From Candidatus Kryptobacter tengchongensis (GTDB lineage: Bacteria > Bacteroidota > Ignavibacteria > Kryptoniales > Kryptoniaceae), in NCBI GenBank assembly GCA_001485605.1, contig FAON01000004.1, positions 248,001 to 312,000 on the forward strand: a stretch of 64,000 nt of DNA, given 5' to 3'. How positions within the stretch are numbered: position 1 is the first letter of the stretch; the number at the start of each line of letters is the position of its first letter. Shown here one piece after another: positions 5,679 through 46,507 of the stretch. The notes beneath the pieces were generated by a model. It did no database searches. It was not told the origin of the DNA and saw only the letters and a program-made list of their open reading frames with translations. The translations under genes were made by a program, and so were the position numbers.

Positions 5679-8555
5679 TTATGTTTTCTTCACCTCTTCA
5701 AGTTTTCTTTTGATTTCAAGGATGTTATACGCTTCAATGACATCACCGACCTTTATATCATTATAATTTTCAAGTGCGATTCCACATTCAAGCCCAGCTT
5801 CAACTTCCTTTACATCATCTTTGAATCTTTTAAGCGATACAATTTTCCCATCATAAATCACGATCCCATTTCTTATTAGACGAGCACGGGCATTTCTTAA
5901 GATTTTACCTTCTGTTACGAAACATCCAGCAACGGTTCCAACTTTTGAAATTTTAAATGTCTCCCTGACCTCTGCAGTCCCAAGAAATTCTTCTCTCTTT
6001 TCTGGCTCAAGCATTCCCTCAAGTGCTTTTCTAATATCGTCAATCACATTATAAATGATATTGTAAAGTCGTATTTCAACATTCTCATTTTCTGCAAGTT
6101 TTTTCGCCCCGGATGTTGGTCTCACATTGAAACCAATTATAATTGCACCTGAAGCTTGAGCAAGCAAGACATCAGATTCACTTATTGCGCCAACAGCTCT
6201 ATGAATGATCCGAACTTTGACCTCCTCAGTTGAAAGCTTCATCAGGGAATCTGAGAGCGCTTCAATTGAACCATTTACATCAGCTTTGATTATAACAGGC
6301 AATTCTTTAACCTTGCCTTCTTTAATTTGCTCTGAAAGTTTATTCAAGGATATAGACCTTAATTGTCTAAATGTTTGCTCCCGTTTTAATTGAGATCTTT
6401 TGTTTGCGATTTCACGAGCTATTTTTTCATCTTCAACAACTACAAATGAATCCCCTGCTTCCGGGAGCTGATCAAACCCTATAACCTGAACTGGCGTTGA
6501 CGGTTTTGCAACCTCAACTCTATTTCCTCTTTCATCAAACATAGCTCTTACCCTTCCAAATGTAGTTCCAGCAACAAACGGATCACCGATTTTTAAACTT
6601 CCATTTTGCACAAGAACTGTTCCAACAGGACCACGTCCTTTATCAAGTTTTGATTCAATTACAACACCACGGGCTTTTTTCTTTGGATTCGCTTTAAGAT
6701 CCATTAATTCAGCCTCAAGCAGAATTTTTTCAAGAAGAAGATCAACATTTTTACCATACTTTGCTGAAATCTCAACACATTGATACTTCCCACCCCAATC
6801 CTCAACAAGGATCCCTCTTTCAGCAAGTTGTTGTCTAATTTTGTCTGGATTTGCTTCTGGTTTATCAATTTTATTTATTGCAACGATTATTGGAACATTT
6901 GCAGCAAGTGCATGGTTAATTGCTTCAACAGTTTGAGGCATAACTGCGTCATCAGCTGCAACGACAAGAACAACTATATCTGTAACCTGAGCACCACGAG
7001 CACGCATTGCTGTAAACGCTTCATGTCCCGGGGTATCAATGAATGTGATCTGCTTGCCGTTTGGAAGGGTCACTTGATACGCTCCTATGTGCTGGGTTAT
7101 ACCACCAGCTTCACCAGCAACTATGTTACTTTGCCTTATGTAATCAAGGAGCGTTGTCTTCCCGTGATCAACATGACCCATGATCGTCACAACAGGGGGT
7201 CTCGGTTCAAGGTCTTCAGGACGATCAGGTTCTTCCTTAATTACATCTTCAAGATATTCCTCAGCCTTTTCAACTTCAAAACCATAATCGCTTGCTATAA
7301 GAGTTATAGTGTCAAAGTCAAGTCGCTGATTTATAGAAACAACAAGCCCAAGGTTAAGACACTTTTTAATTATCTCACTTGCTGAAACCCCCATGATATT
7401 TGCAAGTTCATTAACAGTGATGAATTCAGCAACGCTTATTTTCCTTCTTTCCTTTTCAAGTTGTTCTATCTTTTTCTCCTCTTTCTCTTGTCTTTCTTTC
7501 TTCTTCCGTTTTTTGATTATTTCTCTTATATCTGGACCTGCTTCTTCCATTTCTGCAAGCGTCTGATCAATCCTTCTCAAAATTTCTGCTTCATCAATTT
7601 CAACCCTGCTTCGTTTGCTCTTCTTTATAGGTTTCTTTATTTCAATATCTTCAATTTCAACAAATTTTCTCTTCTTCTCTCTTCTTTCCCTTGCTTGCTT
7701 TTTCTTTCTCGTCTCATCCTTTGCTACTTCAACCTCGGGCGCATGAACAATTTCCTCAACCTTTCCCTCCTTCACAGGTTTTGGTTTCTCCTCAAATCTT
7801 CTAATTCTTCTATCCCTCTTCCTTTCCCTATCTCTTTCCCTTCTTCTATCTCTATCTCTTTCCCTATCAAACTTTCTATCTCGGGTTCCTCTCATCTTAT
7901 CCACATCAACATAAACCATTTCACCCTTTCTATGCCCTTTCTCCGCTTCAACTGATTCTGCTTCCGACTCAGACGAAATCACCTCTGCCTTACCTTCAAC
8001 CGGCTCTTCAACTTGATCAATCTGCTCCTGTGCAACAACTTGAGTTGGCTCTTGCGCTACGACTGGCTCCTCAACTTGCTTTATTTCTTCCTGTATCTCA
8101 ACTTTTTCTTCGCTTTCCTTAGCTTTCTCTTCAACAACTTCCCTTGAAACAACTTCTTCTACCTTTTCCTCCGGCACGATTTGCTCCACCTGAACCTGAG
8201 GTGTGGATTCGGCAACTTCACCTACTTCAATCTCCCCGGCTGGTTGAATGAACCCACTTTCCACGGTCTCAGTTTTAACCTCAATTGTCTGCGAAGTTTC
8301 AACTTTTTCCTCAACCACTGGCTTTGTTTCAACCGCTACAGCCTCGGTGATTTTCATTTCCCTTTCCTTCTTCCTCTTCTGACGCTCAGCCAGCTCTCGC
8401 TCATGCTTATAGTGTCTATTTATTATCTCAAGCATCTTATCATCAACCGGGGACATATGATTCTTCACATCAAATCCCTGCTTCTGTAAAAAACTAACAA
8501 GCTCATCTGATGATATGTTAAGTTCCTTTGCTATTTGATATACTCTTCTCGGCAT
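5679..8555 (-). CDS. infB: Translation initiation factor IF-2
   Basis: A 958-residue IF-2. The N-terminus ([21 protein letters not shown]) is the small IF2_N helical domain. Residues about 60-350 are a long, highly charged, low-complexity linker rich in Glu/Val and then Arg/Asp/Glu. A second IF2_N-like segment ([19 protein letters not shown]) precedes the GTPase, whose G1 motif is [10 protein letters not shown]3 DTPGHEAF and G4 NKIDK. The four-domain C-terminus is complete. It positions initiator tRNA on the 30S subunit. It lies between nusA and rbfA with about 22 bases on each side. Confidence 0.97.
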
Positions 8556-10394: not shown

Positions 10395-10546
10395 CATGGA
10401 AGCTAAATTTTTAAAAAAATATAAAAAAATAAACTACAATTTGCAAATTAAAGACAACGGCTAAAATAACCGAAAGAATTAAGCAATCTATCAACAAACC
10501 AACTTTGTGCAGAAACCGTCCGCCCACTGATTGACAAAACTATTTT

Positions 10547-11230
10547 TTAAACCTCAACCTTAAACGGATTAAAATCTGTGTCCCAGTCATAGTAATCTTC
10601 ATTCTCAGCTTTTTTCAAAAAATTTACAACTTTATAAGTTACCGGCGTAATCACTGCTTCCCATCCAACTTTAATTGCGTAATTCGTTACCATAACTTTT
10701 AAAAGAAGTTCATTGGTCCAAAAGCCATAAAAAGCAACTGGATAAAAGATAAGGGAATCAACAGCCTCTCCAGCTATTGTTGAACCAATAGTTCGTGTCC
10801 ATAAAAATCTCCCCCGTGTTAAAAGTTTCATCTTCGCAAGAACGAAAGAATTTGTAAATTCACCAGCCCAAAATGCAGTTATTGATGCTATTACAATCCT
10901 TGGGGTTTGACCAAAAACAACATCATAGGCGTCTTGATATTGCCAGTTCGGATCAGGAGGGAGTTTCCTCACAAACCAACTCATAAATGATGCAAAAATT
11001 AAAGCACCAAATCCAGCCCATATCACCTTTCTTGACCTTGAATAACCATAAACCTCAGTCAATACATCATTAAAAATATAGCTTATCGGAAAGAATAAAA
11101 CACCAGCACCAAACGAGAAACCATATATATTTACAACTTTTTCAGCACCGATTATATTTGAACAAAGCAAAATCGTCACAAACGAAGCCATCACAAGATC
11201 ATAATACTTATATACCCTGCGTTTTTCCAT
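10547..11230 (-). CDS. Queuosine precursor transporter (YhhQ/VUT family)
   Basis: A 227-residue integral membrane protein with about six hydrophobic segments. It matches the YhhQ (vitamin uptake transporter-like, VUT) family: LLCSNIIGAEKV in helix 1, FPISYIFNDVLTEVYGYSRSRKVIW in the second region, and TIGSTIAGEAVDSLIFYPVAF in the middle. Characterised members import queuosine precursors such as preQ0/preQ1 across the inner membrane. No queuosine synthesis genes or preQ1 riboswitch are seen here. It stands alone between rimP and a divergent lipoprotein gene. Family assignment is firm; substrate is by homology only. Confidence 0.85.
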   Translation of the reverse strand: MEKRRVYKYYDLVMASFVTILLCSNIIGAEKVVNIYGFSFGAGVLFFPISYIFNDVLTEVYGYSRSRKVIWAGFGALIFASFMSWFVRKLPPDPNWQYQDAYDVVFGQTPRIVIASITAFWAGEFTNSFVLAKMKLLTRGRFLWTRTIGSTIAGEAVDSLIFYPVAFYGFWTNELLLKVMVTNYAIKVGWEAVITPVTYKVVNFLKKAENEDYYDWDTDFNPFKVEV

Positions 11231-11351
11231 ACCGTTTTTTTATGATAAAAAACATAAAGAAAACTTAAAATGCTCCTTCAAATAAAACTTGATTTTTATG
11301 CTTTGCTTTTTATAAATTTAAACAGGTAAAAACAAAAATAGGAGATTCCCA

Positions 11352-12021
11352 ATGAAATTAAAAAATTTCATAAGAATTTTCTTAGTGGGGGGGGGTAATA
11401 ATTTTATCAAGCTGTGAAAAACAAAGCGATTTAATGACACCATCTTTTCAAACCTCAAAAACAGCGTTAACACGAGATTCATATTACTCTACCGTTGATA
11501 TTTTCCAAAAGCACAATAAAAAAGTATGGGAGAAAACAAATTCAGAAAAATCATCTCTTTCAAGTAAAAACGAATATCAAATAACAGCATTGCCAACTTT
11601 TACCTATGATTATGGAACTTTGATAAGCTCTCCAAGATATTTCCCTGCTGATGACGGAACCATTTACGAGATTAACATTTATTCCTATTCAGCTATATAC
11701 TATGGGGAAGATCAACCATGGTCTATTGATACAATACGAGTCCATTTATATACGAGAGTGGAAAGGTTTTACAGATTTTCCCCAGGCGGTCCGTTGTATC
11801 CGGGGCCATGGAACGAATGGGAAGATGATAACACTCAAACTAACAGCTATTTCGCTTCTTTGAGGGTATATTTCTATGGCTTTATACCAAAATATGATAC
11901 ACCCGTTTGGATATATGACAAGTGGCTCGGGATAGGAACACACACTTTCAAAGATAGGCGTTTTGATATCAATAAGCAATTTTCATCGCAAGCTATATCT
12001 TGGATTCCAAACATACCATGA
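11352..12021 (+). CDS. Putative surface lipoprotein, frameshifted at a G9 tract
   Basis: I do not recognise the family. An ATG at 11352, preceded by AGGAG at 11340-11344, opens a signal peptide (MKLKNFIRIFLV) that reads into nine consecutive G and then stops at a TGA soon after. The frame that is open downstream reads VIILSSC, a good lipobox, and continues for about 200 residues to 12021. With eight G instead of nine the two halves join perfectly into a lipoprotein with a normal signal peptide. The mature part is Tyr/Pro rich with an N-terminal Ser/Thr region and no recognised domain. A phase-variable gene currently in the off state is the most likely reading; a sequencing error in the homopolymer is the alternative. 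The next gene follows after nine bases. Confidence 0.7.
11387..11395 (+). repeat. Poly-G tract (G9) in a signal peptide
   Basis: Nine consecutive G residues in a strongly A/T-rich genome, placed within a signal peptide coding region. Losing one G would restore the reading frame of the lipoprotein gene 11352-12021. This is the typical layout of a slipped-strand contingency tract. Confidence 0.85.
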
Positions 12022-12030
12022 TTAAACCAC

Positions 12031-13554
12031 ATGTTATATTCATTATTTAGATTTTTTGCAATGTTTATAATTTCTTCAGTATCATTGTTAATAACGCTTA
12101 TTTTAACATACCCGCAACAGGATCATCCATACTCATGGAACAAGGAAGGCATTGTCTTTAAACTTACACGAGATTATGCGAAATATGATATAAGATGGTT
12201 TACTTCTAATGACAAGATTTTGGTAGTGGTGGAAACTAATAGGGTTGACAGCATTATATTTTACTTTATTGATTTGAAAAGATTAGAAGTAATTGACTCT
12301 GTAAAATTTTCGTTTAATAGCAAACTAATTGACATTCTAACTGCATTTGATGTGGAAAAAAACAGGGATACGGTGTTTGTTTTCTTCAGCCAATTTATCG
12401 GAACACCTCCAGCTAATATCAGTTTAGGAAATTCATTATGGTATTTAAAGGCTGATTTGAAAAATAGAAAATATTCTGTTGAAAATTTATTTACTTACGA
12501 TACGACAAAAAGATATTCAGTCTGGCATATCGACGCTGAATATGACAATGAGTATAACAATTTGTATATCTTTTGGAATTACTCTGGGGATGGATTTAGA
12601 ACTAGATATAAAGTAAGAAAAAATGGGGACTGGAGTGATACATCAGGGATAGTGTACATTTACAAAGTTGGTTCTGCGCAGGTTTACGGCTGGGATTTAC
12701 CTCTATACTCTGATTTGCTTATAGATAACACCGGAAAGTTTCACGCTTTAGGATTACGCTCGGGAATTGAGCATGGATTATCCACCGACTCAGGAAAAAC
12801 TTGGAATGGTCAGGAAATATCTCCAGGTAACGCTCTTTTTGAACGCAAACTTTTAGTTGACTATAATGGAAATCTTCATGCTTTCTTTTCCGTTGGTACT
12901 CGTAATGAGTTTGGTAGATTTGGACCACCAACAAGTATACAGTATGCTTTCTCAACAGATGGTGGTAAGACATGGTCTGCTCCAATTGACATAACTAAAT
13001 CATTACCATCCCCAAAAATCATAGGTCTCTCTTTTGACGCTGTTGTTGACTCATGGAATAGAGTCCATCTTGTTTTTGACGCCGAGATAAAAGGAGTCGG
13101 ATATATTTACCATACATACTGGAACGGGCGAAGGTGGTCGGATTTTCAAAAACTTGACTTTTCTTATATGGGTGGAATCGTACAACTAAATGTAGACGAG
13201 TATAACAACCTACATCTTGTTTTCTCATCAAAGCCAGCTCATGGTTTAGTTTATGCAGTAGGAACTCCACTAAATGCACCTGAACAACCGAAGTATTTCA
13301 AAATTTATCCCAACTTCCCGAATCCGTTTAATTATAAAACAAATATCAAATTTACATTAAGTAAGCAAGCCTATGTTTTGATTAAAATCTATGACATTAC
13401 GGGAAAGTTGATCACCACTTTAATGGACTCTGATAAAAAACCCGGAACATATCAAATAGAATTTAACGCTTCTAATTTATCAAGCGGGGTATATTTTCTG
13501 GAGTTTAATGTTGACGGTATAAGAGAATTTAAAAAATTACTTCTGATAAAATAA
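12031..13554 (+). CDS. Secreted Asp-box (BNR) repeat protein with T9SS sorting domain
   Basis: A 507-residue exported protein. The N-terminus has a hydrophobic signal segment (about residues 5-28). The middle has at least two BNR/Asp-box motifs, STDSGKTW and STDGGKTW, the hairpins of sialidase-type beta-propellers. The last 85 residues are a type IX secretion (Por) sorting domain: YPNFPNPFNYKTNIKF, then a KIYDITGKLI turn, LSSGVYFLEF and KKLLLIK at the end. It should be secreted and anchored at the cell surface. No sialidase catalytic Arg triad is obvious, so enzymatic activity is not claimed. It is probably co-transcribed with the lipoprotein gene nine bases upstream. Confidence 0.8.
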   Translation: MLYSLFRFFAMFIISSVSLLITLILTYPQQDHPYSWNKEGIVFKLTRDYAKYDIRWFTSNDKILVVVETNRVDSIIFYFIDLKRLEVIDSVKFSFNSKLIDILTAFDVEKNRDTVFVFFSQFIGTPPANISLGNSLWYLKADLKNRKYSVENLFTYDTTKRYSVWHIDAEYDNEYNNLYIFWNYSGDGFRTRYKVRKNGDWSDTSGIVYIYKVGSAQVYGWDLPLYSDLLIDNTGKFHALGLRSGIEHGLSTDSGKTWNGQEISPGNALFERKLLVDYNGNLHAFFSVGTRNEFGRFGPPTSIQYAFSTDGGKTWSAPIDITKSLPSPKIIGLSFDAVVDSWNRVHLVFDAEIKGVGYIYHTYWNGRRWSDFQKLDFSYMGGIVQLNVDEYNNLHLVFSSKPAHGLVYAVGTPLNAPEQPKYFKIYPNFPNPFNYKTNIKFTLSKQAYVLIKIYDITGKLITTLMDSDKKPGTYQIEFNASNLSSGVYFLEFNVDGIREFKKLLLIK

Positions 13555-13558
13555 ACAA

Positions 13559-13576
13559 GGGGGCAAATATGCCCCC
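13559..13576. terminator. Terminator hairpin between convergent genes
   Basis: A 7-bp stem GGGGGCA/TGCCCCC with a 4-base loop lies between the converging ends of the Asp-box gene (plus) and the octahaem lipoprotein gene (minus). On the minus strand it is followed by a T-rich run (TTGTTTATTTT), so it fits best as the terminator of the cytochrome operon. It may serve both directions. Confidence 0.7.
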
Positions 13577-13584
13577 CATTTAGC

Positions 13585-14739
13585 TCACTTTAAAACTACT
13601 GCACTATTCCCAGCCCTGACCAAAAATTCAACCTCATAACCATACAAATTTAACTTCCCATTTATATGCTTTGTCTTATCCTTTATGTAGAGCTGGGCGT
13701 TGGAAATTCCAACTACATCATTATGACATGCACTTGCACAAGATGTTGGAGAAACTTTTGGATGAGTTCCAGCTGGTGGCAGTCCATGACAACTCCCACA
13801 AGTTGCTTGAGTTCCATCAACGATGTTCCACTTTGGAGCGTTATTTAGATTTCCGTTTCGGAAATAACCGTGACAATATGTATTTGAACATGTTAGGTTA
13901 TTTAAATCATAATCCGGGTTTGGGACAAGATATTCGCCAATTCCAATTGGGGTTTTATGCCTTGCGAGGGAACTATCTTGAAAAATTACTTCAGCGTTTG
14001 GTGTATCATCAAGATGACCTGGCGATCTTAAAGAAGTTGGTTTAATATGACATTCAACGCAATCAAACCCGAGAGCAAATTTACCTTCTTTCACATGAGA
14101 TTGATGTGCACCAACTCCACGAGCAGATGTTGAAAAATTACTATTTAAGTCCCTTGGTGGTGCAGGATTTGAAAGACTGCCGTGACATGTATTGCATGCT
14201 TCAGGTCCAGCTGTTGCATTATGGCATGTATAACAAGACGATTTGCTTATCCCGCCTCTGTAATCGCTTCCGTGACATTGTTTGCATTGCTCAAAATTCC
14301 AACTTGTATTGCGTATAAATTTTCCATGCGAATTTGAACCCGTCACTTGAACCCAATCGGTCGGGTGAATTTTTATACTTCCGAACGCAAGACTATCTTC
14401 CACAACCCATTTTCTTATCCTTTCTGCCTTGATAGATGCATCTGCCCCGAGATATTGTCTCATACTTCCGCCAGATTGAGTTACAAGGATAATTTTACTA
14501 TTCGCATCTCCAGGAAATGCCGTCCCACTTTGGGCTATACCAAAATATGTTGAAAGATCAAAGTCAGCCGAAGCTTGATTATGACAGCTTACACAGTGCT
14601 CATCAAAAATTTTCTTTATATCATCCTTATAAGTTAATTTCAATGATATTGGTGGCGTAATTATTTCCTCTTTCAATTCACTGCACGAAGATAAAATTAA
14701 AGAAGCAAGTGCGAGGAAAATTAAAACTTTAGCTTTCAT
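13585..14739 (-). CDS. Lipoprotein multihaem cytochrome c with CX4CH sites
   Basis: A 384-residue protein with a lipoprotein signal (lipobox LILSSC, Cys about 19). I count eight covalent haem sites: six CXXCH (CVSCH, CKQCH, CYTCH, CNTCH, CVECH, CGSCH), one CX4CH (CSNTYCH) and one CX3CH (CASACH). The N-terminal part (KKIFDEHCVSCHNQ, then a Trp-containing helix) resembles the monohaem domain of Planctomycete-type cytochromes. The C-terminal part with paired CX4CH and CXXCH resembles the family first noted in Geobacter (GSu_C4xC__C2xCH). It is last of the Rieske/cytochrome b operon, beside a beta-barrel gene, so an outer-membrane, possibly surface-exposed, position is likely. Localisation is inference. 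Confidence 0.85.
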   Translation of the reverse strand: MKAKVLIFLALASLILSSCSELKEEIITPPISLKLTYKDDIKKIFDEHCVSCHNQASADFDLSTYFGIAQSGTAFPGDANSKIILVTQSGGSMRQYLGADASIKAERIRKWVVEDSLAFGSIKIHPTDWVQVTGSNSHGKFIRNTSWNFEQCKQCHGSDYRGGISKSSCYTCHNATAGPEACNTCHGSLSNPAPPRDLNSNFSTSARGVGAHQSHVKEGKFALGFDCVECHIKPTSLRSPGHLDDTPNAEVIFQDSSLARHKTPIGIGEYLVPNPDYDLNNLTCSNTYCHGYFRNGNLNNAPKWNIVDGTQATCGSCHGLPPAGTHPKVSPTSCASACHNDVVGISNAQLYIKDKTKHINGKLNLYGYEVEFLVRAGNSAVVLK

Positions 14740-14759
14740 TTTTGTTCAGCTTTTAATTT

Positions 14760-15980
14760 TTAATCTTTTGAACCATGACAATACCCACAGAATCCAACAC
14801 CTGATTTTCTTGTGTTGATATGACAGGAAAAACATACAGAACCATCGTTTGTGTGCCAATCTCCTTCAACATTTTTCATATAATTTTTGGGATGTGTCTT
14901 TGGATCGTTGCCAAGCCCTGGATTTCTATCAACATGGCAGATTATACAAGTTGGATCAGCCCCTTCGGTATCGTGACAGCTCATACACATTTCAATATCC
15001 CGTTTCGCAATCTTAGCATGTCTTCCACCACCAGAGCCAACACCAATCGTAACGAAGTCATTTCCACTGTGCCATTCAGGTTTGACCTGACTTGTAGTTA
15101 TATCGCCACCCGGGGCATGACAACCACTACAAAATGTTTGACGGTCATGACAAACATAGCAATCTTTTTCTTTACTTTTTGCCTCAATTCCATGAGTATA
15201 ACGATAATTCAAATCATGAACTCTCTGCAAAACCAATTGTTCCTTCCCAGAGCTCTGCGGTGTAAATGGGGCATAAAAATCCTTTCCCGTCAATGGAACC
15301 TTGATAAGATTTACACCATCATGACATTGCTGACAAAAATCATCGTTATGGCATGTGATACAGTTATTCTCCACACCACCTGCACGGACAAATTTTTTAT
15401 GCTCTGTTGTAAAATCAACAACCTTATGACTTTCTGGTAAAAGTGAAACCGTCTCAACATGGCAGGATTCGCATTCATTTGTTGCAGTGCGATTATTATG
15501 GCAAGTAAAACAACTCTCCATACTCGGCAAATGTTCCGGCGTTGCATAATCAACTTTATCGGCTCCAGCGTGGCAATCAAGACAATTTAACTTTTGATTC
15601 TCAATATGGAATTTATGCGAAAAGATAAGCTTTCTAACGGGTTCCTCATACGGAACCATATTTTTCGTGTCAAGATGGCAAAATTCACATGGGGTTGATT
15701 TCTCATCATGGCAATTGAAACAAGTTGCCTGTTTCGGAAGTAGGAAATCGGATGATTTTTCGCTTGTCAAAGCGCCTGCGTGACAATCTGTGCATTCAGC
15801 CCCTACATTTTCAGCGTGAAACCTATGCGAAAACTTTATGTTCATCCATTGCTTTACATTATCACCATAAAATTCACCTCTCTCAGATGTTCTCAAATCA
15901 GAAAAGGCAACAAAGATAAAAGTGAGGGGGACTAACAAAATTGAAAGAGCATAAAATGTTAAAATTTTCGCTGTCTTCAT
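14760..15980 (-). CDS. 14-haem c-type cytochrome (periplasmic, MtrA-like role)
   Basis: A 406-residue protein with an N-terminal signal or anchor helix (about residues 5-26) and fourteen CXXCH sites by direct count. The first half has repeated units of the form FSHRFHAENVGAECTDCH and FSHKFHIENQKLNCLDCH, in which upstream His residues would be the distal axial ligands, as in cytochrome c7/c3-type modules. It lies between the beta-barrel gene (28 bases upstream) and the lipoprotein cytochrome (20 bases downstream). By analogy with porin-cytochrome complexes it could be the periplasmic or barrel-inserted haem wire. No catalytic haem motif (such as CXXCK) is seen, so an electron-transfer role is more likely than catalysis. 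Confidence 0.88.
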   Translation of the reverse strand: MKTAKILTFYALSILLVPLTFIFVAFSDLRTSERGEFYGDNVKQWMNIKFSHRFHAENVGAECTDCHAGALTSEKSSDFLLPKQATCFNCHDEKSTPCEFCHLDTKNMVPYEEPVRKLIFSHKFHIENQKLNCLDCHAGADKVDYATPEHLPSMESCFTCHNNRTATNECESCHVETVSLLPESHKVVDFTTEHKKFVRAGGVENNCITCHNDDFCQQCHDGVNLIKVPLTGKDFYAPFTPQSSGKEQLVLQRVHDLNYRYTHGIEAKSKEKDCYVCHDRQTFCSGCHAPGGDITTSQVKPEWHSGNDFVTIGVGSGGGRHAKIAKRDIEMCMSCHDTEGADPTCIICHVDRNPGLGNDPKTHPKNYMKNVEGDWHTNDGSVCFSCHINTRKSGVGFCGYCHGSKD

Positions 15981-16008
15981 TTTTAAACCTAAATTTAATT
16001 TTATTTAA

Positions 16009-17292
16009 TCAGCGAATCACTTCCCCTGGGACAAGACCAAGATTTGTGAAAAGCCAATAATTAAATTTGAAAAATACTCTAAAATCGGATTTATAAACTC
16101 TATTCTGGATATACTGCGATTGAACATCAAATGAAATAGATTTGCTGGGCTTTACACTTCCACCCAAAGCTATGACTAAATCTTTATGTCTTTCTCCACC
16201 TTCCCATAGTTTATAAGAAGAAAAAGTCAAACTTGCATTCGGAATAAATCTATTGTTAAACATCGGATAATAAACCTGTGCTGATACACCGTCAAGCTCA
16301 CCAGCATAACCCAATCTTTTTGCGAAGTTAACAGAAGCATATCCAACATCAAATCCAAGCACAATTCTTTGAGCCTTATCATCAACATAACGAACATTTG
16401 AAAAACCAGCATAGACTCTCAAAAGAGATGAGATCCTGTAATGAACCCCCGCTTCAACTTCTTTAGTTGCGCCATAATTGAAAACAGAGAAAATTGAATT
16501 CACCGGAATTCTTGGATCCCTGTAATCATAGCTAACACTCAACTTTAATCTTTCAATTAAATTAATACCAATTGAAACCTCACCCCTTGAAAATTTAACC
16601 TTATTTATGTCATAGTCAAGTCGTGAATAAAATTCAAAAATTGAGAGCTCATAATTTAAATCGCCACTTACAATCTGATATTGTGAAGATGTAAAATTGA
16701 TTTCCTGAACGAAGACATCGCCAAGGCTATCTGCACGAAGGGCTTCATAAGCTTTCGGTTTACGATGTTGATTGAAATAACTTAACGAGGCATTAAGAGA
16801 ACCCTTTGAAAATTTTAACTGCCCTCCAAACATAAAATTATTTTTCGGCTCATCGTTCAAAGCAAATTTCTGGTCTTGAGGCATGAGAAATCCACCGTAA
16901 ACATTCGCATTTAAAAACTTGGAAATTTTTGCATTGACATATGCCCCATCAATAGTACCAACACCAACGCCTGAATAAACGGCGAATCTCCCAAGCTTTA
17001 AATTGAAGCGGTTAAAGATATTTCTCCAGTTAAGATAAAAGTTATAAAATCTAAATCTTGGATCACCAGTCTGTTTTTCACGAAAATCATTTGAGATATT
17101 AACAAATGAATGTAACGATAAATTACCCTTGCTCAATGTTATCTGAGCAAGTTGAAACGCTCTAAGGTGCTCACTCCTTACCTCAGGGGTTTCATATCTC
17201 TGCCACATATAGGCTGTGGTTGTGAGGCGGAGATTTAGGTTCTGCGAAAACAAAAGCGCTGGGGCTAATAATAAAAGAAACAATTTTTTCAT
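16009..17292 (-). CDS. Outer-membrane beta-barrel protein of the cytochrome operon
   Basis: A 427-residue protein with a signal peptide ending near LLFSQ (about residue 16), followed throughout by alternating aromatic and polar strands typical of outer-membrane barrels, such as FNLKLGRFAVYSGVG and LKLSVSYDYRDPRI. No haem motif is present. The gene overlaps the 11-haem cytochrome gene upstream by four bases and precedes the 14-haem cytochrome gene, so it belongs to this electron-transfer operon. Its length is close to the Geobacter OmbB-type porins and well below MtrB. I infer a porin for a porin-cytochrome conduit, but sequence similarity to known conduit porins could not be tested. Confidence 0.75.
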   Translation of the reverse strand: MKKLFLLLLAPALLFSQNLNLRLTTTAYMWQRYETPEVRSEHLRAFQLAQITLSKGNLSLHSFVNISNDFREKQTGDPRFRFYNFYLNWRNIFNRFNLKLGRFAVYSGVGVGTIDGAYVNAKISKFLNANVYGGFLMPQDQKFALNDEPKNNFMFGGQLKFSKGSLNASLSYFNQHRKPKAYEALRADSLGDVFVQEINFTSSQYQIVSGDLNYELSIFEFYSRLDYDINKVKFSRGEVSIGINLIERLKLSVSYDYRDPRIPVNSIFSVFNYGATKEVEAGVHYRISSLLRVYAGFSNVRYVDDKAQRIVLGFDVGYASVNFAKRLGYAGELDGVSAQVYYPMFNNRFIPNASLTFSSYKLWEGGERHKDLVIALGGSVKPSKSISFDVQSQYIQNRVYKSDFRVFFKFNYWLFTNLGLVPGEVIR

Positions 17293-18716
17293 TTTTTTCT
17301 TTCAATTTGTTTGATTTTAAAATAAAGAGCAATCACAAGAATTGTTATTATCAATGTTGACATACCAAGTCCCCACCTTCTAAAATAGTATTCATCAATT
17401 GCATCAAGCCCAGCCTTGGTAACCCTGTCTATTATCTCATAACCAGGCGCAATCGTTTCTTTAAACTCATCAAGATTTGCCGTATGGATCACCGTTCTTG
17501 CTTTGATTAGAATTTGAGGGACATCGTTCATATCATACCTTGCATCAGACACATCCATACCCTTAAATTCAGCTTCATCAAGGATCGCTTTTGCTCTGTT
17601 TGTCCTCATAACAAGTGTATCAATCATATCTCTCATTTGCTTTGCCACTTCAAAACCTTTTTCTCCCTCTCTATGGCACTTTATACATGTTGACTTTGTG
17701 CTTATGCCAAGCATTTCATCGGTCGGTCGTTCAATTAGATGATTACCATGACAAACTTCACACTGCGGTATATTTCTCTTCTCAAAAACCTCGGCGTGGG
17801 GACTCCGTGAGAACATTTCAGCGTTTAAAGCATGACAGATACCACAAACATGCGAGATTGACTTAACACCAGGAGGAATAGCGCCGTGATTTCCGTGACA
17901 ATCGTTACAAGCTGGCGCTGACAAATCTCCTTTCTCAAGCAACGCCTTACCATGAACACTTTGAGCATATTTCTCGTATTGATCGGTCGGGATCTTATAA
18001 TCACGCATATAATTTGCGTCACTGTGACATCTTGCACAAGTTTTTGGTAAAGTTGAAGCGAAAACCGTTGACCTTGGATCGTTAGCTGGAAAGATATCAT
18101 GAGCGGAGTGGCAATCTGAACATGTTGCTACTTTGGTATCACCTTTCAAAATCCTTTGACCATGGACACTTGTTTTATATTTTTCAAACTGATCCGTTGG
18201 AAGAGCTGGATTAAACTTTTTCATATAATTCGCATCACTGTGGCATTTGCTACAAAGTCTAACCTCGGATGTTGGATAAACTGGGGATGTAGGATCATTT
18301 ACTTTTTTAATGTTGTGAACGCCATGACAAGTTACACATGTTGCAATTTCGCTTTTACCATGAACGCTTGCCTTAAAAAGTTTAAACTGATTTACATCAA
18401 TCTTTGAACCAAACTTTTTCATGACCATTTCATTTGAATGACACTTCAAACATACATCAATGATCTTATCGCCCTTGGGAATTCCAATAAACCCTTTCCC
18501 CTTGCTCATTGCAACTTCCATATCATCACTTGTTTTATCTCCGCCATGACAATCTGCACAAGAAACACCAAGTTTAAAATGGACATCTTTGGGGTAAAGT
18601 TCTGTTGCTTTATCCCCAACCGCATCTTTATGACAGTTATAACATCCATCTTTGCCTTGAGATAAAGCAAAAGTAAGTGTAAACAAAACAATCGCTAAAA
18701 TGACAAACTTCTTCAT
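17289..18716 (-). CDS. 11-haem membrane-tethered cytochrome c of the bc-type complex
   Basis: A 475-residue protein with a signal peptide, eleven CXXCH sites by direct count (CYNCH through CIKCH) and a C-terminal transmembrane helix (about 448-468) followed by a short Lys/Arg tail. Repeats of the form KYKTSVHG...CSDCHSAHDI and CSKCHSDANYMKKF recur across the domain. It directly follows cytochrome b and Rieske genes (21-base gap), in the place where cytochrome c1 or f would be. The likely role is electron acceptor from the Rieske protein on the periplasmic face. A region of about 100 residues between the last haem and the membrane helix is haem-free and helical. Confidence 0.87.
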   Translation of the reverse strand: MKKFVILAIVLFTLTFALSQGKDGCYNCHKDAVGDKATELYPKDVHFKLGVSCADCHGGDKTSDDMEVAMSKGKGFIGIPKGDKIIDVCLKCHSNEMVMKKFGSKIDVNQFKLFKASVHGKSEIATCVTCHGVHNIKKVNDPTSPVYPTSEVRLCSKCHSDANYMKKFNPALPTDQFEKYKTSVHGQRILKGDTKVATCSDCHSAHDIFPANDPRSTVFASTLPKTCARCHSDANYMRDYKIPTDQYEKYAQSVHGKALLEKGDLSAPACNDCHGNHGAIPPGVKSISHVCGICHALNAEMFSRSPHAEVFEKRNIPQCEVCHGNHLIERPTDEMLGISTKSTCIKCHREGEKGFEVAKQMRDMIDTLVMRTNRAKAILDEAEFKGMDVSDARYDMNDVPQILIKARTVIHTANLDEFKETIAPGYEIIDRVTKAGLDAIDEYYFRRWGLGMSTLIITILVIALYFKIKQIERKK

Positions 18717-18737
18717 CCAAGTTTAAATTTTTTATTT

Positions 18738-19820
18738 TTAATCTAACACATAACCAAGGATTGTCATTGTGAGCATGTAAATTAATACGAAAAGACCTAT
18801 ATAGTTTATCAATCTGTTTCTGTATCCTTTATCAGTTTTCACATCCCAAAATGGGACGAGCATCCAAAGTATTCCAGCAACTGTGAAGATGAGAAGACCG
18901 AAAAATTCACCTTCAATAAATAGAACTTTTGCGGGTAAAAGTTTTAATGTTTGATACATAAAGAGAAAATACCACTCTGGTTTGATCCCGGCAGGAGCGG
19001 GCGCAAATGGGTCAGCTTTTTTGCCAAGCTCCCATGGAAAAAAAACAGCAAGTATTGCAAGTATATTCAAAATTATAAGCCACAACAAAAGATCACGAAG
19101 CAGGAAGTTTGGAAAAAATGGAATGTATTTTCTTTTTTCGGGTGGAAGCTTCTCCCATTCAGGTGGTTCACTCATACCTTGAATTTGAATGAACAAAAGA
19201 TGAAGGAAAAGAATCACCGTAAAAATTCCCGGAAGTATTGCCACATGTAAGCCGAAAAACCTCGCAAGCGTTGCCCCTGTGACATCTTCACCACCACGAA
19301 CAATTCTTAACAGTTCCTTACCGATCACAGGAATTGAACCGATTATCTCCGTTCCAACCTTCGTTGCAAAAAAGGCAAGTTCATTCCACGGGAGAAGATA
19401 ACCACTGAAACCAAATGTAAGAGAGAAAATCAAAAGCAAGAAACCAGTCACCCAAGTTAACTCCCTTGGCTTGCGATATGCTTTTGTGAAATAAACACTA
19501 AACATATGAATAAAAACAGCAAGTATCATCAAATTTGCAGACCAGCTGTGAATTGAACGAATAAGCCAACCAAATTTAACCTTTGAAACTATAAATTGAA
19601 CACTTTCATAAGAGCTATCCTCCCCAACCCTATAATAAAGCAATAAAAGGATGCCGGTTACAACTTGAATTATAAATAAGAATAAACTCACCCCACCAAA
19701 ATAATACCAGATTGAATGCCTATGCCAAGGCACAGTTTTATGCGACATAAACTCAATAAAACTACGAATTTTATACCTTTCATCAAACCAGTTGAAAAAC
19801 TTTTCCCCGAGCCCACCCAT
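18738..19820 (-). CDS. Cytochrome b of a Rieske/cytochrome b complex (b6 plus subunit IV fused)
   Basis: A 360-residue membrane protein. The haem-ligand pairs are H91/H105 and H192/H207; the 15-residue spacing of the second pair is the b6-type spacing rather than the mitochondrial one. The Qo-site PEWY motif is present at about residues 281-284. The chain continues through subunit IV-like helices, so b6 and subunit IV are one protein. It oxidises quinol at the inner membrane and passes electrons to Rieske and low-potential haems. It lies three bases after the Rieske gene and before the 11-haem cytochrome gene, together forming a quinol:cytochrome c oxidoreductase-like unit. Confidence 0.95.
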
Positions 19821-19823
19821 ATC

Positions 19824-20267
19824 TTATCCTTCTTTTGTTATATAAATTTCGTCCCCTTTTATCACAACACGAAATGCCTCAAGAGGTCTTGGTGGAGGAC
19901 CCGATATATTTCTCCCGTTCAAATCATACTTCCCGTTATGGCAAGCGCACCAGATTGCTTTCATATCACTACGATACTGGACTGTACAATCAAGATGTGT
20001 GCAAACTGCGGAAAAAGCACGAAATTCACCTGTCTCAAGCCGAATTAAAAGACCAGGTTTACTCCCAAACTTAAAAATTGTCCCCGTGCCTGGTTTGAAA
20101 TCATCAATTTTCCCAACCTTCACACTTTTCACTTTTGCCTCAGGCATTTTAGGAGGATTGATATACCGAAAGATTGGATATAGAACAGAGACAAGCCAAC
20201 CTAAAAAACCAAATCCCAAAATATAACTTAAAAAATCACGCCTTGACCTTTTAAAATCAGAATTCAT
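19824..20267 (-). CDS. Rieske iron-sulphur protein of the bc-type complex
   Basis: A 147-residue protein with a twin-arginine-like N-terminus (RSRRDFLSY), one membrane helix (about 13-35) and a C-terminal Rieske fold. Ligand motifs are C89-x-H91 and C107-x-C109-H110, with C94 and C109 forming the usual disulphide. I chose the ATG at 20267; the frame extends upstream only to a TTG at 20279. It donates electrons from quinol to the downstream multihaem cytochrome. It is first of the downstream cytochrome block and begins only about 42 bases after a terminator-like hairpin, leaving little room for a promoter. Confidence 0.94.
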   Translation of the reverse strand: MNSDFKRSRRDFLSYILGFGFLGWLVSVLYPIFRYINPPKMPEAKVKSVKVGKIDDFKPGTGTIFKFGSKPGLLIRLETGEFRAFSAVCTHLDCTVQYRSDMKAIWCACHNGKYDLNGRNISGPPPRPLEAFRVVIKGDEIYITKEG

Positions 20268-20309
20268 TAGATTTATCAATTTCTTTTTTCTTTATTTAAA
20301 AAACATAAG

Positions 20310-45583: not shown

Positions 45584-46507
45584 CTAAATAAAACCGAGTA
45601 AACGCTTTATATTCCCCGATAAAATTTTCTGAATTTCATCTGACGATAAGCCAAGTTTATCAAATATCTCCAGCTGTTGATTTAATATATCAACCCTATA
45701 TCCCCGTGGGAAAATTCCGCTATCTGTCCCGAAAATAATTCTATCAACGCCGAAAATTTCCAATGTTTTTGCGAAGACAGTTTTAAGATCAATTTGATAC
45801 GGTAAAACCCTTATCCAGGAGTTTGAGCTTGATGTATCAACATAAACATTTCTACACTGCAACCCAAGCATTAAAACCTCTTGAAAATATCCAGCCCCAA
45901 AATGCGGTATTATGAAGTTAACATCTGGATGTCTAACTGCGATTCTATGAAGATCAGTTGGATTACTGTAAGTTCCATCTATTTGATCTCTAACACCTAT
46001 AGCCTCACGAACTGGAATTTTTAAAATCCCAAAATGCGTAAAAACAACAAGATGATACTCCTCCGCAATTAGATAAATTCTTTCAAGCAATTCATCGTAA
46101 ACATGGATATGATAAAGAGCAGGAAATAAAATCATCCCTCTCATCCCCATATTCTCAACGGCGTGCTTTACCTCTGAATCCACATTTTCAGCAAACGGGT
46201 TTAAGGTGAAGAAACCAACAAATTTATCTGGAAATGCAGATATTGCAGTTGACACCGAAACTGTGTCCTCCGGGATGCTCGCAAAAAGAACAAGTTTTGA
46301 AATACCATATTTCTCCATTTCATCAATCCATCGCCTTGCAAGCTGCACAGGGCTAACAGGTGGAGTTTCTATGCCATATCTTTCTCTAAGAAAAGTAAAC
46401 TCCTCATTCAGCGGTGTTTCCTTTCCCTTCATCCTTATCAGGGTTTTAAAAAAATTGAAGGAGAAAAAGTGAACATGCGCATCCCAAATCTCAAATCCTT
46501 CGGTCAT
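45584..46507 (-). CDS. Amidohydrolase (Amidohydro_2 family)
   Basis: A 307-residue TIM-barrel metal hydrolase. It has the HxH motif DAHVHFF near the start, His in FTHFG, His in IIPHFGAGYF and the final Asp in FGTDSGIFPRG, the metal-site set of the Amidohydro_2 (ACMSD-like) family. I chose the ATG at 46507 (MTEGFEIWDAHVH), since only a TTG at 46549 lies upstream in frame. It has no signal peptide. Substrate cannot be told; family members include decarboxylases and hydrolases of small cyclic acids. It is isolated between the TonB region and the greA terminator. Confidence 0.85.
   Translation of the reverse strand: MTEGFEIWDAHVHFFSFNFFKTLIRMKGKETPLNEEFTFLRERYGIETPPVSPVQLARRWIDEMEKYGISKLVLFASIPEDTVSVSTAISAFPDKFVGFFTLNPFAENVDSEVKHAVENMGMRGMILFPALYHIHVYDELLERIYLIAEEYHLVVFTHFGILKIPVREAIGVRDQIDGTYSNPTDLHRIAVRHPDVNFIIPHFGAGYFQEVLMLGLQCRNVYVDTSSSNSWIRVLPYQIDLKTVFAKTLEIFGVDRIIFGTDSGIFPRGYRVDILNQQLEIFDKLGLSSDEIQKILSGNIKRLLGFI

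Follow-up and report, generated by a model that had tools for sequence, protein, structure and literature searches.

A frame break at a nine-G tract in the signal peptide of an apparently orphan lipoprotein gene of Candidatus Kryptobacter tengchongensis

In the 64 000-nucleotide stretch of a Candidatus Kryptobacter tengchongensis contig that was analysed here (the window), the reading frame of a lipoprotein gene is interrupted within its signal peptide, at nine consecutive G (Table 1). The most likely reading, with a probability of roughly 0.6, is that the break is an unselected one-base indel, either a mutation or a miscount, in a dispensable and species-restricted gene. The earlier note had proposed that the tract is a phase-variable on/off switch. 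A chance one-base slip or an assembly miscount is at least as likely, and this proposal is not supported: no second tract of this kind and no orthologue with a conserved tract were found, and a sodium symporter gene in a relative provides a parallel for such a break.

Table 1. Features of the lipoprotein locus and the other long G runs of this genome
Feature	Position	Strand	Remarks
Queuosine precursor transporter gene (TIGR00697)	10547–11230	−	Divergent left neighbour; found in 3 of the 7 genomes of the genus, this one among them
AGGAG ribosome-binding site	11340–11344	+	7 bases upstream of ATG 11352; read directly
ATG frame as assembled	11352–11417	+	21 codons and TGA (stop 11415–11417)
Lipoprotein gene, tract one base shorter	11352–12021	+	222 residues; lipobox LSSC, cysteine 21
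Run of nine G	11387–11395	+	Falls within the hydrophobic core of the signal peptide
Internal-ATG part of the lipoprotein frame, open as assembled	11434–12021	+	195 residues, without the signal peptide
T9SS-cargo secreted protein gene	12031–13554	+	Sorting domain at residues 429–503; starts 9 bases after the lipoprotein stop
G+C-rich hairpin	13558–13577		Lies in the gap separating the convergent T9SS and cytochrome genes; resembles a terminator on the minus strand
Multihaem cytochrome lipoprotein gene	13585–14739	−	Convergent right neighbour; found in 5 of the 7 genomes of the genus, this one among them
Run of at least eight G	Contig C3		Eight G at 6000–6007; inside an open 616-residue ORF, oxidoreductase-like as read
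Run of at least eight G	Contig C9		At the end of an ORF, by the contig end
Run of at least eight G	Contig C9		Intergenic as read
Run of at least eight G	Contig C10		Intergenic as read, near the contig end
Second run of at least nine G	Contig C13		Nine G at 45943–45951; intergenic, with a tRNA gene on one side and an ORF on the other

The earlier note's description of the sequence itself, with nine consecutive G residues, an early stop and a good AGGAG site ahead of the ATG, is borne out. As assembled, the ATG frame translates as MKLKNFIRIFLVGGGNNFIKL followed by a stop and ends before the lipobox. With one base fewer in the tract it reads MKLKNFIRIFLVGGVIILSSC-EKQSD... and continues to the stop at 12019–12021, giving the lipoprotein signal and long open frame that had been anticipated. 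In this joined frame the lipobox occupies residues 18–21, its cysteine opening the segment CEKQSD, and the features of a type II signal peptide (a basic n-region, a hydrophobic core and the lipobox cysteine) are recognizable by eye; the translation downstream of the tract carries no further damage. Downstream of the tract the frame has a clear coding character, with a codon log-odds score of +53 bits over 207 codons (−219 and −88 for the other two frames), and an equally long stop-free run would arise with a chance of about 2 × 10−5 at the local composition. Since the post-tract frame codes and so long a stop-free run is improbable by chance, the assembled sequence does contain a genuine frame break at the tract. 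On paper, a change in tract length toggles the lipoprotein frame between intact and broken.

The sequence of events that best accommodates these features would begin with a dispensable locus at which a T9SS-cargo gene stood in tandem with a recently functional lipoprotein gene, whose signal peptide became interrupted by one base too many in the G run. Such an indel would be an ordinary event at a slippery homopolymer, arising either as a slippage mutation in the sampled population or as a miscount in the consensus. In the nine-G form ribosomes would halt after 21 codons (at 11417), and neither a complete signal peptide nor the lipoprotein would be produced; the loss of one G, or the gain of two, would restore the frame. 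Because about 600 bases of untranslated message would then lie ahead of the T9SS start at 12031, polarity could also lower expression of the T9SS gene. We infer both the lack of selection on the indel and these effects on expression from the sequence. In favour of an unselected indel, the genome has just one other run of at least nine G, and that one is intergenic beside a tRNA gene. Against it stand the otherwise clean assembly, the avoidance of G runs elsewhere, the position in a signal peptide and the undamaged downstream frame, and these points are equally in keeping with a switch that has been kept.

The lipoprotein appears to be a species-restricted orphan, with no convincing relative among 395 genomes of the phylum. 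A search of 41 genomes returned only the protein itself, and the search of the 395 phylum genomes returned itself and one 30% match (E = 0.0075, 75 residues) that is not credible as a relative. Pattern searches gave 11 matches in genome contigs and two in viral contigs, none of which was confirmed, and none was found on plasmids. No Pfam or NCBIfam family matched, and the lone PDB match (E = 0.32) is meaningless. The first 410 residues of the neighbouring T9SS protein were found in two of the 395 phylum genomes (itself and one 29% match), and the DNA of the whole insert (11231–13584) matched, beyond itself, only over segments of about 40–50 bases in the sorting-domain part, in the relatives G001 and G003. 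Folds predicted without alignments were poor, with a mean pLDDT of 38.9 for the 195-residue ORF and 43.2 for the T9SS protein.

The T9SS gene to which the earlier note had drawn attention is indeed a close tandem neighbour. Its product carries a C-terminal sorting domain (Por_Secre_tail, PF18962, E = 7 × 10−14; TIGR04183, E = 1 × 10−9) together with weak BNR/Asp-box matches. In the relative G004 the cytochrome and transporter genes are only 55 bases apart, with neither the lipoprotein gene nor the T9SS gene between them. In G006 the cytochrome gene lies at the start of contig C13, and ahead of it stands the terminal part of a T9SS gene with 61% identity over the final 62 residues; this T9SS gene is frame-broken within the sorting domain near the contig end. 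The transporter gene lies at the very start of contig C8, and both contigs (C13, 1–378; C8, 1–60) end in this locus. In G001 and G003 the cytochrome gene is present with other genes beyond it, and in the less complete genomes G002 and G005 neither flanking gene was found. From the arrangements in G004, G006, G001 and G003, the T9SS gene already stood at this site in an ancestor of the present genome (G000) and G006, or was gained there, and elsewhere it has been lost or is decaying. Judged from the same comparison, the locus is dispensable and variable in presence, since it is absent in G004 and its T9SS gene is frame-broken in G006. Terminator-like and promoter-like sites in the region were about as frequent as expected (two terminator-like sites versus 1.5 in shuffles; 11 promoter sites versus 10.7 by chance).

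One-base breaks in poly-G runs do occur in the genus without being switches, because a housekeeping-type gene, that of a conserved sodium symporter, is broken in G002 and open in five orthologues. The break in G002 falls in a run of eight G (G002:C6:36302–36309, minus strand), and the frame needs one base less. The orthologues in G000, G001, G003, G004 and G006 encode NGGGAFMIPYF with interrupted G runs, and the frame is open there; the gene is thus found in six of the seven genus genomes, G005 being without it. The match in G003 (G003:C47:3853–5292) contains one TAA, which is apart from the G run. Counting the lipoprotein gene, at least two of the G runs of eight or more that lie in coding sequence across the seven genomes therefore break the frame.

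A general problem with frame breaks or homopolymers in the assembly was considered and is not supported. Proteins of relatives traced in 400 kb of this genome showed no frame breaks (0 of 67), nor did proteins of this genome traced in the relatives (0 of 47). Sampled stretches of relatives, G001 and G004 for the most part, supplied 1133 ORFs for the comparison, and 354 ORFs were used in reverse, with tracing over 85% of the protein length at 60% identity or more; the samples of shared proteins, 67 and 47, are small and bound the frame-break rate only to a few per cent. A smaller comparison gave one candidate among 25, for which, as read, tandem repeats in the target account. In ORF length and coding density the genome resembles its relatives, and A/T runs of eight occur inside long intact ORFs. 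A lone miscount in one of the two longest G runs of the genome is possible, and a real one-base mutation would look identical to it.

The length of the tract is not beyond composition. Runs of nine or more G/C number two in 2.68 Mb versus about 4.3 expected, and runs of eight or more number six versus about 19, the expectations being from a first-order model built on the window base and G-G/C-C frequencies. Matches to a run of eight G in the window were equalled or exceeded in 17 of 100 dinucleotide shuffles. Intact genes in this genome avoid long G runs. In 400 kb there are 233 G/C runs of five, 37 of six, none of seven, none of eight and this run of nine. Synonymous-codon resampling (336 ORFs, 374,502 coding bases, 100 draws) predicted 15.8 runs of at least seven G and 4.3 of at least eight, and none of either was seen with the lipoprotein tract set aside; the open gene on contig C3 that contains a run of eight lies outside this sample. 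The lipoprotein tract has thus escaped an avoidance under which runs of at least seven G are otherwise absent from the sampled ORFs. Its position in a signal peptide is mildly surprising, as about 7% of codons fall among the first 25; seven of 144 coding-strand runs of at least five G lie within the first 25 codons, versus 6.7% of codons there. No G/C run above three was present in the signal of any of eight lipoprotein candidates identified in the sampled ORFs by a simple pattern. The seven genomes hold 12 runs of at least eight G in total, and none of the other 11, read by eye, lies in a signal peptide, including the five others in this genome; runs of at least nine G number 2, 2, 1, 1, 1, 0 and 0 per genome.

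True phase variation, in which slipped-strand mispairing would switch the lipoprotein, and perhaps the T9SS protein by polarity, with the assembly representing the off state, is a tentative second reading. It is kept alive because coding sequence elsewhere avoids long G runs and the assembly is otherwise clean, and the signal-peptide position and the intact coding frame downstream accord with it. It stays a candidate only, however, because the genome has a single such tract and no repertoire, one tract length was observed in one assembly with no length variants, and no orthologue with a conserved tract was found among relatives. MutS-family genes are present in this genome (two matches), with no sign of lost mismatch repair, so slippage need not be raised.

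In the HpuAB haemoglobin receptor, HpuA is the lipoprotein partner. HmbR and HpuAB of Neisseria meningitidis are phase-variable and carry poly-G tracts within the ORF (PMC3786947), so that, as would apply here, a one-base change in a reading frame breaks or restores a surface protein; switching states were, however, assessed there across isolates, whereas here there is one length in one assembly and no relatives with the tract. In a PhasomeIt study of Neisseria, nine is the cut-off for poly-G/C tracts and switching at seven G is mentioned for siaD (PMC5953494). The present tract reaches this cut-off but sits at its lower limit. The same study gives an average of 15.4 such tracts per meningococcal genome and about 5 to 10 in poorer Neisseria (PMC5953494), in contrast to two here, one of them intergenic, although Neisseria is richer in G+C and the counts are not directly comparable. 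Slippage switches also exist outside pathogens: for a Bifidobacterium breve pilus, a replication-slippage switch is reported as shown by deep sequencing (PMC9187656), but this concerns a different structure and evidence of a different kind from the single assembly available here. No paper turned up in a literature search on phase variation at homopolymers or simple sequence repeats in metagenome-assembled genomes.

The earlier note had also called the product a surface lipoprotein. The lipoprotein signal stands, but the residues after the cysteine agree only in part with the Bacteroidota surface-lipoprotein export signal, C-X-K-(D/E)2-X (PMC5080379): in C-E-K-Q-S-D the lysine is at +3 (cysteine +1), whereas +4 and +5 are Q and S rather than acidic, and a Bacteroidota consensus may not be that of this lineage. 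A fuller picture, in which a lone contingency switch in a T9SS-bearing environmental lineage that purges long G runs toggles an orphan surface lipoprotein and its T9SS partner, possibly as a module for evasion of phages or grazers or for attachment, seems rather unlikely. If the tract does vary, the lineage would have a contingency locus here and no other visible ones, which would help in asking what selects switching outside hosts. If it does not, the case illustrates that one poly-G frame break, seen in a single assembly, counts as weak evidence, and the gene would best be annotated as frame-broken, not as a short peptide.

Recoding, by which transcriptional or ribosomal slippage on the tract would yield a fixed fraction of full-length lipoprotein, is improbable: the nine G could act as a slippery site and the frame beyond them is intact, but no orthologue with a conserved tract was found, no Rfam match occurs in 10500–14800 and nothing specific points to it. 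A start at the internal ATG 11434, where an ORF does exist, would give a 195-residue cytoplasmic protein with the tract in an untranslated leader and is barely credible, as it gives up a good ribosome site and ATG together with a basic n-region, hydrophobic core and lipobox that connect with one another across the tract, in a frame that is open for 16 codons further upstream (211 residues open) with no earlier ATG, GTG or TTG, and no AGGAG-like site was seen before this ATG when the sequence was read.

Some further observations concern the surroundings and the other G runs. On the minus strand of the window, 13585–20279 holds successive genes for multihaem cytochromes, a porin-like protein, cytochrome b and Rieske-like proteins, an order partly kept in G001, G003 and G004. 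The T9SS protein has 53 matches in G000, pointing to a large set of T9SS cargo; among the matches listed, every one except itself covers only the C-terminal part. In G003, nine consecutive G (G003:C8:128815–128823) lie in an apparent 23S rRNA (GACACTGTCTC-G9-CACGGTGAAATTG) and could reflect either a natural loop or a fault of assembly. The start of a G002 contig (G002:C28:1–60), is nearly all G and A, includes a run of ten G and adjoins an ORF; it has the look of an artefact of assembly or adapters.
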